From positions 3,505,501 through 3,569,500 of the forward strand of contig CM066736.1 in the NCBI GenBank assembly GCA_033961575.1: 64,000 nucleotides of DNA, in the 5' to 3' direction. This stretch comes from Aselliscus stoliczkanus. Taxonomy: Eukaryota > Chordata > Mammalia > Chiroptera > Hipposideridae. Under the pieces are notes generated by a model that was not told where the DNA came from, searched no databases, and saw only the letters and a list, made by a program, of their open reading frames with translations. Each line of letters starts with the position of its first letter. The stretch's first letter is position 1. The translations under genes were made by a program, and so were the position numbers. Below are positions 49,101 to 58,100 of the stretch, piece by piece.

Positions 49101-52100
49101 CTCCCTTCTGAAGGGAGGGTGGTGATGCCAAATGTCTTAACGTATTGGTGTCCTTCTCCAGCGAGCAGAGATGCTACAGAAATTGAGTGAGGTCCAGGTT
49201 TCCGAAGCAGAGATGCGACTCTACTACACCACGTCCAAGTTGGGCACCGGGAACCGCATGTACCACGCCAAAGAGTAAGTCCAGCAGCCCCTCCCGAAGC
49301 CCATCCCCCTGCTAGGGCCCCTGGGGTCGGGCTCTCAGGCAACAAGGCTCCCAGAGAAAAAACTTGTTTGCGGTGGCGTACGTGCTGTAATGCTTCTAAT
49401 GAGGAGAGGCTCCAGATGCTGCTAAAAGCCCTGCGAGGCACAGGACAGCAAAGTTCCCTGCTCCAATGATGTCCATGCTTTCCTGCAAAGTGGGTCCTGT
49501 GTTACACGCTCTTCCAGCTTTTGCACAGACATTGCTGTCAACTGGCCACGGATTAGACTTGGCCCACTAGCAAGTTTTGTTTGGTTCATACAGAGTTGTT
49601 AAAGCATTCAGGTCTTTTGCTAATGTATTGGCTTTCTGGGGCTGCCATAACAAATGACCACACACTGGGTGCCTTCCAGCGGGAAATTTACTGTCTCGTG
49701 GTTCTGAAGACCAGAACCAGGGCCTTCAGGGTGTCATAATCAAAAACGAAGGTGTTAATTTTTTGGGCTGGTTGGCATGGAATCCGGAGACTCAGGGACC
49801 GTGGCACCCATGCATGGCGATGACTCGGTGTCAGATTCAGGAAGTTTTGCTGTCCCTCGATCCTGGCGAGAAAAGAAATCCAAGAAAGGATACCAGGAAG
49901 CTCTGGAAAGATTGAAAAAGGCTAAAGCTGGTGAGAAGTATAAATATGAAGTTGAGGACTTCACAAGTGTTTATGAAGAGGTTGATGAAGAACAGTATGC
50001 GAAGCTGGTGAAGGCACGCCAGGATGATGACTGGATCGTGGATGACGATGGTATAGGCTATGTGGAGGATGGCCGAGAGATTTTTGATGATGACCTTGAA
50101 GACAATGCCCTTGATTCCCATGAGAAAGGAAAAGATAAAGCACACAGCAAAGAAAAGAAGAATGCAAAGAAGGCTGCAGTGACAAAACCAGACAATATCA
50201 AGTCCATATTCATTGCTAGTGCTGGGAAGAAAACCACAGATAAAACGGTAGATTTGTCCAAGGATGGTCTGCTAGGTGACATTCTACAAGATCTGACCAC
50301 TGAGACATCTTCTACAACTCCACCACCTGTAATACTAAAGAAAAAACGATCCACCGAGGCTTCAATGAATCCTTTCTCCATGCACACCCCCAAGGCAGTT
50401 CCTTCAGGAAAAACTGATTGCCCTGTCTCAAGGAAGGAGCCTCCATTAACTCTTGTTCCTGTTAAAAGGGCTCGATTGGCTGCAGAGCCAGTGCTGGCAC
50501 CATGTCCTACAGCAGAACCAGTGCCAACCCCGTGTCCACAAGATAAGGACAAGTCAGCGGCAGTGGATTTTGAAGATGGCGACTTTGATGAGCCCATGGA
50601 AGCTGAAGAGGCCGACATGGAGCCTGTGGCTGCCAAGACTCGGGACCAAGAGAGTGAGCCAGCAAAGGGGGTGAAAGCTGAGGCAGGTCCCCAGAAAAGG
50701 ACCACGTCCTGCCTAGGGAGTTATCTCACAGATGGCCCTTGTTGGGACATCGATCCGGAAGATGACAGTGGTTTCTCAGCCCAGGATGTTCAAGTGGATT
50801 CCAATAATCTCCCTCTGGTAAAAGGGGCAGATGAGGAACAAGTGTTTCAGTTTTTTTGGCTGGATGCCTATGAAGATCAGTACAGCCAGCCAGGGGTGGT
50901 ATTTCTGTTTGGTAAAGTTTGGATCGAATCTGCTAAGACCCATGTGAGCTGTTGTGTTATGGTGAAAAACATTGAGCGAACACTTTACTTCCTTCCCCGT
51001 GAAACAAAAATTGATCTACACACAAGGAAAGAAACAGGAACTCCAGTTACAATGAAGGAAGTTTATGATGAATTTGATGAGAAAATAGCAGCAAAATATA
51101 AAATTATGAAGTTCAAGTCCAAGATGGTGGAAAAGAACTATGCTTTTGAGATACCTGATATTCCAGAAAAATCTGAGTACTTGGAAGTTAGATACTCGGC
51201 TGAAATGCAACAGCTTCCTCAGAATTTGGAAGGAGAAACTTTTTCTCATGTATTTGGGACCAACGCATCCAGCTTGGAACTGTTGTTGATGAACAGAAAG
51301 ATCAGAGGACCTTGTTGGCTCGAAATAAAAAATCCACAACTCTTGAATCCACCGATCAGTTGGTGTAAAGTTGAGGTAATGGTTTTGAAACCAGTCCTGG
51401 TGAATGTAATTAAGGACCTCGGTCCTCCTCCACTCGTGGTGATGTCTGTCAGCATGAAGACCATGCAGAATGCAAAGACACATCAAAATGAGATTATTGC
51501 TGTGTCAGCTTTGGTCCATTACAGCTTTGCATTAGATAAAGCACCGCCACAGCCTCCCTTTCAGTCACACTTTTGTGTTCTGTCTAAACCAAAGGACTGT
51601 ATTTTTCCATATGGTTTTAGTGACGTCATTAAGAAAAAGAATGTGAAGGTTGAGGTTGCTGCAACAGAAAGAACACTGCTAGGTTTTTTCCTTGCAAAAG
51701 TTCACAAAGTTGACCCTGATATCATTGTGGGTCATAATATTTATGGGTTTGAACTGGAAGTGTTACTACAGAGAATTAATGTGTGCAAAGTTCCCTATTG
51801 GTCCAAGATAGGTCGACTGAAGCGATCCAACATGCCAAAGCTTGGGGGCAGGAGTGGATTTGGGGAGAGAAATGCCACCTGTGGTCGAATTATCTGTGAT
51901 GTGGAAATTTCAGCAAAGGAATTGATGCGTTGTAAAAGCTACCATTTGTCTGAACTTGTTCAACAGATTCTTAAAATGGAAAGGGTTGTAATCTCAATGG
52001 AAAATGTACAAAATATGTACAGTGAACCTTCTCATCTGTTGTACCTGTTGGAACACACCTGGAAAGATGCCAGGTTCATTTTGCAGATCATGTGTGAGCT

Positions 52101-55100: not shown

Positions 55101-58100
55101 GGGGACAGGGATGATTAATTGGCCCTGGTCTACTTTGTCCCATTTCTTTAGAATAGTACACTCTTTGCCAGAAGCTAAATGTATTTCAACATAACAGTCT
55201 TTCCTTTCTTATGGTATTAGTAAGATTGTACTAACAATATTCCCCCTTTACAACGATGCTTTATTTTTGAAACTATCTACCTATGTGTTTTCATAAAAGA
55301 AAAATATATTATGCTCTGTTAAGAATAAAGTTTTCTAAAGGAAGAAAAAAAAAACGAAGGTGTTGGCAGGGTTGGTTCCTTCTGGAGGCTGGAGAATCTT
55401 GCACGCTTCTCTCCCTGCTCTGGTGGTGGCCAGGAACCCTTGGCAGTCCTTGGTTTGTAGGTGTGTCACTCCAGCCTCCCGGTGTGCCTTTGTCACGTCT
55501 GTGGCTGTGTCGCTGTTTTCTCTTATGAGGACACCAGTCATTGGATGTAGGGCCCACCTCAATCCAGTGTGACCTCAACTTAGTTACGTCTGCAAAGAGC
55601 CTATTTCCAGATAAGGAATCTCCAGCGGTCATGAATTTGGGGGTGGGGAACACTATGTAACTCAGTACAGCCAACCCTTAAGAATTAGGAGATGTCACAT
55701 TAAAATCCAGTTTTTCACCTGGCCTTGAGCGCTGGACCATGTGGCCACACCAGCTGGCATTCCTACAGCATAGCTGGCACCCTAGGCCCCCCACTCACTG
55801 CTGCACTCAGCCTGCGCTATTCATTATCTTAGTGCCGGCCTGGTCCCTGTAAGCATTTTTGGGCCTTTAATGTCTGCTGATCGTGTGCAGACTATTTCCT
55901 GGGCCCTCCTCTAGCCGTGAGCATAGAGCAGTGCACAAAATTAAAATAACATGGAAGCTTCCCTTAAGCTTCCCTTCTAAGGGTGGGGAGATGAGCATCA
56001 GTCAAATGAATACATATGAATACATACATAAAAGTGCTGGTAAGCAGTAAGCTGAAAATAAAGCAGGGAGAAGAGGATGGAGGGAGACTTGTTACTTTTT
56101 TTTTGAGGACACTGTCCCTGGCCCTCAGAAGCAGGACCCGAACCAGGGCCGCTGGCTTCGCAAGCCGCCGCTTAACCACCACGCCACTGGGCCGGCCCAA
56201 GAGGATGGAGGGAGGTGTTTCAGGCTGCATAGTCCCTGAGAGGTGACACTTGAGGGAGGGAGCAGGAAGAGGGAGTGCAAAGGCCCTGGGGTGGGAGAGG
56301 GTGTGGCCTTGGAGTCCTTGTCTCTGAGGAGTACAGTCCAGAGCTGCCTCAGGCCCCTCTGGGGCCTCAGGCCTGACTCCTGGCTCTCCTGGCAGGAGGT
56401 CTGATGAGGTCTCGGCCCAAGGTCAAGAGAAGATCAGCAGCCTCCGCGGGTCCCGGAAGCGCTGTCACCAGGAGGCAGAAGAGGAGTCTGACTCCCCCGT
56501 GGAGTCCGAAGCCGAGGCGATCCCGGCTGCTGAGAGGGTAGAGGCTGGTGCACGCACAAGGGCAGCGTGCTGGACGCCAGCTCTGCCAGGGGCCGGGGCT
56601 GAGAGCCCGGCTCCGGCCACTCCTTCAGCTGCGGCCCCCACCCTGGCCAGACCCCCGGCGAAGCCCGCTGTCTTCATCCCTGTGAACCGCTCCCCTGAAG
56701 TGCAGGTTTGCCACTCGGGTGTTTGTGATGAGAACTTAGGCTGGTGCTGTGAGGGGCTGAGGGTGTGGAGGGAGGGATTTGGGCAGGTTGCATCACCGGT
56801 GCCATAAATGTGACCCTCCCACCAGCAACAACTGGGCGTGCCTGTTATCGGGGCACCTCTGCTCTGGCCAAGTTGTCCCCGAGGACCTTGGGTCTCATGC
56901 CCGGAAGGACAGTGACAGCCTGGATCTTGGTTCCCCCTGGGCCGTGGCTGGCTGTCCCCGTCCCCAACGGTCAAGGCTTTGGTTCACCAGTCGACTCACC
57001 TACTCCCCATTCTGGGCGCTGTCCACACGCCTGCTGCCTCCTTTATAGAAACCACGTCACCCTGCAGTCCTGCTTTGTCTGAGCAAAGTCCCCTTCTCCC
57101 CTCTGCCATTCTGCAGGGGACCCTCTGTTCCCTAAACGCCGGCTTCCTCTCTGTGGCAGGAAGAACGGCTAAAGCTCCCCATTCTCTCAGAGGAACAAGT
57201 GATCATGGAGGCGGTGGCCGAGCACCCCGTTGTCATTGTGTGCGGTGAGACCGGCAGCGGGAAGACCACGCAGGTGCCCCAGTTTCTCTACGAAGCAGGC
57301 TACAGCAGGTGGGGCCGGCACAGGGTCCTCACAGGTCCCTTGGGTGACAGTGGAGACATTGTCCCCAAAAGTCCTTAATCCTGACTCTGCCATTTACATG
57401 CTGTGTGACTTTGGGCAAGCTGCTCAAGTCCCCTGGGCCTCCGTTTCCTCAGTTGTGAGATGGGGATAATCATTGCCCCTATTTCCCAGGGTGGCTCAAC
57501 AGATGAAATGACTGAGTTCATGTAAAATGCTTCAGTCAGTCCCTGGCGTATTGGGTGGTGTCACCTGTTGGTGACCATGTGCGTCGGGTCCCCAAGCCCA
57601 CCCCCAGGTGCAGCAATTTGCTAGGAAGATACAGGACCCAGCGTGTGGTCGGACTCAGGGTTATGACTTAGGGCACCGAGAGGACGCAAAACAGAATCAG
57701 CAGAGGGCAGAGGTGCCAGGGAGAAGTCTGGGGGGGCCAGGCTCCAGCTCCCAGGGGAGTCGCACAGGATGTGCTTAATTCACCAGCCACGAGCTGTGAC
57801 AACACGTGTCCAGAGTTATCTACCGGGGAAGCCCCTTAGAGACTCGGCTCCCAGGGTGTTTATCGGGGGCTGGTCACCTCTGCCTGGCCCCCAAATCCCA
57901 GAGTCCCCGCAGGAAGCAGGCAGTCAGCATAAACCACACTGTGTTCAGACAGTCCGGGCCCAGTGGGCCCCTCTGATCAGGGGGGGAAGGAACCTTCCCC
58001 AGATACCAGCCAGGGGCCCGCCTCGCCCGCCGCCTGGAACTAGGAGGGCAGCCTCGGCCTGTTGTTGGCTCCTTTCTGCACAGCCCAGAAACCGCCCCCG

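Follow-up and report, generated by a model that had tools for sequence, protein, structure and literature searches.

A window of 64,000 nucleotides from a bat genome carries, in an intron of DHX37, an intronless copy of POLA1, the gene for the DNA polymerase alpha catalytic subunit. This raises the question of whether the copy is a processed pseudogene that has stayed intact by luck or a retrogene whose reading frame has been kept by selection. To our knowledge, the replicative polymerase alpha is regarded as a single-gene enzyme in mammals, and in the literature collection searched no paper pairs POLA1 with "retrogene" or "retrocopy".

Structure of the retrocopy and its host intron

The retrocopy spans positions 49757–55349 of the window on the forward strand and consists of a 5′UTR remnant, a coding frame, a 3′UTR and an A tail. 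It is flanked by a 15 bp target-site duplication, AAAAACGAAGGTGTT, with the 5′ copy at 49742–49756 and the 3′ copy at 55350–55364, both on the forward strand and identical at 15 of 15 bases. The 3′UTR (54214–55341) is of parental origin and has an AATAAA polyadenylation signal at 55324–55329. The templated match to the parent stops at 55341, and there follows a short A-tail remnant that contains one G, AAGAAAAAAAAAA (55342–55354), the final five A residues of which overlap the duplication. In the parental gene 28 exon junctions were mapped, all of them GT-AG with boundary scores weighted towards these dinucleotides, and all 28 are absent from the copy. The lack of introns, the target-site duplication and the 3′ A tail are those of a processed retrocopy of the L1 type.

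The insertion lies in DHX37 intron 3, in the sense orientation. The coding part of exon 1 (46048–46153, donor end counted by hand), exon 2 (48032–48198) and exon 3 (49162–49274) are upstream, and the first part of exon 4 (56396–56462, start approximate, true end unmapped) is downstream, all on the same strand as the retrocopy. An earlier note on this DNA had thus placed the POLA1 copy correctly, and its perfect duplication and A tail are likewise confirmed. DHX37 is autosomal in human. No CpG island was seen at the 5′ end of the retrocopy in a coarse scan, a crude pyrimidine scan found only weak splice acceptors ahead of it, and an Rfam scan of the whole window gave 0 hits. Strong CpG islands are present upstream of DHX37, at 41001–42000 and 501–2000; from human gene order, these may be the promoters of BRI3BP and AACS.

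The open reading frame (49777–54213, forward strand) has 1478 codons and a TGA stop, with no internal stops. A phmmer search of the PDB aligned its residues 6–1478 with chains of human POLA1 (value 0). DFNSLYPS (52402–52425) and YGDTDS (52822–52839), which we take to be polymerase motifs A and C, are present, as are eight cysteines that are presumably zinc-binding. With B-family catalytic motifs and two zinc modules, the predicted product is by sequence a DNA polymerase alpha catalytic subunit. The earlier note had pointed to these kept motifs, and all are indeed there. They are weak as evidence of selection, because chance alone would leave 11 given residues all unchanged in about 70% of cases (by arithmetic from at most 41 missense changes on the retrocopy branch and 1330 codons).

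The only disabling change is at the start. The initiator site of the orthologues (49801–49803) reads GTG in the retrocopy and ATG in the parent of the same species. The frame opens at an ATG in the former 5′UTR (49777–49779), which has a G at both −3 and +4, and its first eight codons are former 5′UTR sequence. The resulting N-terminus, MESGDSGT, opens none of 120 POLA1 proteins examined. The next in-frame ATG is codon 12 (49810–49812), which is ATG in the parent also; initiation there would give a protein without just three parental residues. The frame is still open solely because of the ATG eight codons upstream, in good context, and the ATG at codon 12. "Complete", as the copy had been called, is therefore right for the coding frame and wrong for the parental start codon, the loss of which had been overlooked. 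The copy has the intact frame expected of a functional retrogene, though from a non-parental start.

Parent gene, kinship and age

The genome of the same species (2.19 Gb in 146 contigs) was compared with the retrocopy frame, and 32 of 35 candidate places were scored. Matches were found at 31 places, two of them the retrocopy itself and 29 the exons of a single gene. The retrocopy is on contig C10 (137 Mb), as is the window, and the parent is on the minus strand of a separate contig, C11 (126 Mb). No further POLA1 retrocopies were seen among the scored places, and scans of genome contigs and viral contigs gave no relative. The comparison between parent and retrocopy covers 4002 coding bases, or 1330 codons, with parental stretches reading N left out.

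The top protein matches are POLA1 of Rhinolophus (91%) and of Hipposideros armiger (90%), by the search's own count and among the best 120 of 1040. In the tree, the retrocopy groups with H. armiger with a support of 100, outside Rhinolophus, and the source bat, judged by these sequences, is nearer to Hipposideros than to Rhinolophus. Parent and retrocopy are sisters, also with a support of 100, and their branch lengths are 0.015 and 0.032, respectively. Their proteins differ at 57 of 1330 residues (4.3%); parent and H. armiger differ at 62 of 1264. Relative to H. armiger and Rhinolophus, parent and retrocopy have 17 derived residues in common, and the insertion therefore postdates the split from H. 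armiger.

Six of these 17 changes are at sites that are near-invariant in other mammals, for example K1061Q and E1212K. The functional parental POLA1, as read from its sequence, has itself changed oddly in this bat lineage. The H. armiger database entry for POLA1 is garbled near retrocopy residues 522–565, with ∼40 residues missing. This is probably an annotation fault, and the stretch was masked in the counts of changes.

Between retrocopy and parent there are 109 differences in 4002 coding bases and 46 in 1121 aligned 3′UTR bases. Of the coding differences, 50 are synonymous, and dS is 0.045–0.058 (kappa 4 to 1). At a substitution rate of 2.2e-9 per site and year, the assumed value, the age is 9–13 My, or about 10 My. 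The proposal that the copy is either very recent or kept by selection thus loses its first half, and a merely young, near-identical copy does not describe what the alignment with the parent shows; the second half has moderate support, as discussed below. The 3′UTR of the parent contains a short repeat and a ∼100 bp block that duplicates neighbouring sequence. Both are missing from the retrocopy and so were probably gained after it was made.

Family members of the short repeat were matched at 25 places in the window. With the copy at 31851–31964 as reference, this ∼110 bp repeat has 30 window matches, other copies being at 36217–36327 and 26637–26751, and it resembles a tRNA-derived SINE from this bat lineage. 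A second repeat family, ∼370–430 bp in length, is found at 10687–11052, 12981–13404, 35685–36108, 45161–45601 and 46933–47363. Its copies are 75–89% alike, and their ends overlap the ∼110 bp repeat.

Survival of the frame and pattern of change

A frame of 4.4 kb is a long one to survive about 10 My. The earlier note argued that such a frame, if neutral, should acquire disabling changes, and the numbers agree: 3.6–5.8 stops are expected under neutral drift and none is observed (P 0.005–0.029). The 1478-codon frame is also free of frameshifts, as had been noted, with no indels relative to the parent in 4001 coding bases. Over ∼1.05–1.1 kb the 3′UTR has three small indels outside its poly-T and TA-rich parts, together with a 2 bp change in the poly-T. 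Half the 3′UTR indel rate predicts 5.7–7.6 coding indels, with a predictive P of 0.008–0.024 for none; this yardstick rests on 3–4 events and was taken from the retrocopy itself because a literature search gave no usable indel ratios for pseudogenes.

Pairwise dN/dS between retrocopy and parent is 0.33–0.46 (kappa 1–4), with a bootstrap interval of 0.31–0.68 at kappa 4. Polarized against outgroup sequences of H. armiger and other bats, the amino acid changes number 38 on the retrocopy branch and 16 on the parental branch, with three undecided. Models with transition and CpG bias, in which 50–55% of the 50 synonymous differences are assigned to the retrocopy, give a branch dN/dS of 0.52–0.67 for the retrocopy and 0.23–0.30 for the parent over six settings. 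The retrocopy is the faster in all six, about twofold (P of the reverse 0.0045–0.023). The posterior probability that its dN/dS is at least 1 is 0.001–0.030. The dN/dS comparison with the parent, which had been proposed as a check, thus points to constraint both pairwise and on the retrocopy branch, with the reservation that the 95% interval for the branch extends to 1.02 in the worst of the settings; the value would reach 1 if the synonymous share of the retrocopy were much lower. Purifying selection of the kind expected of a functional retrogene is accordingly seen in part.

Missense changes also avoid conserved positions. Sites were scored as invariant if they had at most one exception among 118 other POLA1 proteins, which holds for 698 of 1313 scored codons. 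Of the 38 retrocopy-branch changes, 11 are at such sites, where neutral mutation would put 52% of them (P 0.003); counting the three undecided changes as well gives 13 of 41 (P 0.006). These P values are independent of the intact frame. In sixteen functional branches 59 of 538 changes (11% pooled) are at invariant sites, and the retrocopy share is higher (P 0.002). Relative to these branches it stands between neutral and functional. In its own lineage, the functional branches have 6 of 17 such changes before the insertion and 2 of 16 in the parent after it, and the retrocopy share does not differ from these 8 of 33 (P 0.79).

By region, the N-lobe has nine retrocopy changes where 18.9 would be expected if neutral, and the polymerase core nine where 16.5 would be expected. 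No constraint is seen at the N-terminus (14 changes, 14.3 expected) or the C-terminus (nine changes, 9.4 expected). The domain limits are approximate, and this regional test was chosen after the data had been seen.

These results bear on the view that the copy is a neutral processed pseudogene that by luck acquired no stop or frameshift and drew attention because it was intact. Several features are as expected of such a copy, namely the lost parental start codon, the unconstrained ends, the faster rate relative to the parent and the dN/dS interval that touches 1.02 in one of six settings. An estimate from proteins only, made before the parent was found, put the probability of an intact frame under neutrality at 0.001–0.049. 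That estimate divided 61 changes since the H. armiger split (20 of them at invariant sites) into neutral and functional shares and has been superseded, because 17 of the changes, six of them at invariant sites, are common to parent and retrocopy. Against neutrality are the avoidance of invariant sites and a joint neutral simulation over six settings of 4000 runs each, none of which combined a stop-free frame with so few missense changes and so small a share of them at invariant sites. Fisher's method, applied to the least favourable P value of each test, gives 1.7e-4. Since the retrocopy was picked for its intactness, a combined P was also computed without the two frame-dependent tests, and the remaining two give 0.003. 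Neutral evolution is thus rejected by the missense tests and the joint simulation under the mutation models used, and a lucky pseudogene is considered unlikely, although it keeps appreciable weight.

Gene conversion from the parent could in principle keep a frame open without selection, and the two sequences are alike enough to convert. No identical tract exceeds chance, the longest being 180 bases where 191 are expected for scattered differences, and differences are spread over the whole coding region. Conversion as the keeper of the frame was rejected as very improbable. A different history is that of a once-working retrogene only lately released from selection, with the lost start codon and the neutral-rate ends as marks of decay. 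The intermediate dN/dS and a constrained core alongside free ends are consistent with this; the frame has so far no stop or frameshift, however, and alternative in-frame ATG codons exist. We regard recent release as doubtful, and it is separable from the explanation preferred below only with relatives of this bat.

A possible second polymerase alpha gene

Given the observed retrocopy, its parent, site and divergence, its intact frame and its non-neutral pattern of change, the best explanation, to which a probability of roughly 0.55 is assigned, is an L1 retrocopy about 10 My old, the frame of which has been under partial purifying selection and most likely yields a POLA1-like protein. L1 machinery would have inserted a copy of spliced POLA1 mRNA in sense into DHX37 intron 3, in a bat lineage already separate from H. 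armiger. Partial selection may then have acted for at least part of the time, with the N-lobe and the polymerase core most strongly affected; the sequence comparisons provide moderate support for such selection. The copy is most likely transcribed within DHX37 and translated from a non-parental start, and it would supply some tissue with a POLA1-like protein of autosomal origin. The intact state fits some use by the animal better than it fits a lucky dead copy. Against full function are the loss of the start codon, a rate about twice that of the parent and the neutral rate at both ends.

Retrogenes of UTP14 offer a parallel. According to one account (PMC5750009), mouse Utp14b is in ACSL3 intron 1 and primate UTP14C in ALG11; such copies arose repeatedly in mammals, one intact copy being in a microbat, and they have an X-linked parent, testis expression and fertility roles. 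POLA1 is described as X-chromosomal in Rhinolophus affinis in a second account (PMC4105523). Transcription with DHX37 and use in the male germline are inferred from these two sources. The male germline is the first candidate tissue because the parental gene would be X-linked and silenced in male meiosis, and a back-up of the X-linked gene there is plausible by analogy. As with UTP14, the copy is an intronless and putatively autosomal derivative of a housekeeping gene, here probably X-linked, and some UTP14 copies also lie within a host gene. The testis and fertility roles described in that account belong to UTP14, whereas the POLA1 copy is known from its sequence; POLA1 is also far longer, and its product is the primer enzyme of DNA replication.

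PDHA2 and UBL4B are autosomal retrogenes of X-linked parents (PDHA1 and UBL4A) kept after meiotic X silencing. These are proven in mouse, whereas the POLA1 copy is lineage-restricted as far as seen, faster-evolving and characterized from DNA. With its parent it shares the motifs and zinc cysteines, and it differs in being intronless, on another contig, without the parental start codon and with 38 amino acid changes of its own, 11 of them at near-invariant sites. X-derived retrogenes are a known kind, to which this copy would belong if X linkage and expression are borne out. Its parent gene and its length set it apart as unusual.

A bolder reading, put forward tentatively and at rather long odds, is that a second catalytic subunit of polymerase alpha is at work in a bat of hipposiderid type, encoded apart from the parental gene and expressed from inside DHX37, perhaps in male germ cells with their silent X, and that it has a constrained core and altered ends. 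If so, the altered ends could change the partners of the polymerase, and the locus would let one ask, in a natural setting, if the male germline requires a POLA1 copy independent of the X. It would also show which parts of the POLA1 protein can vary.
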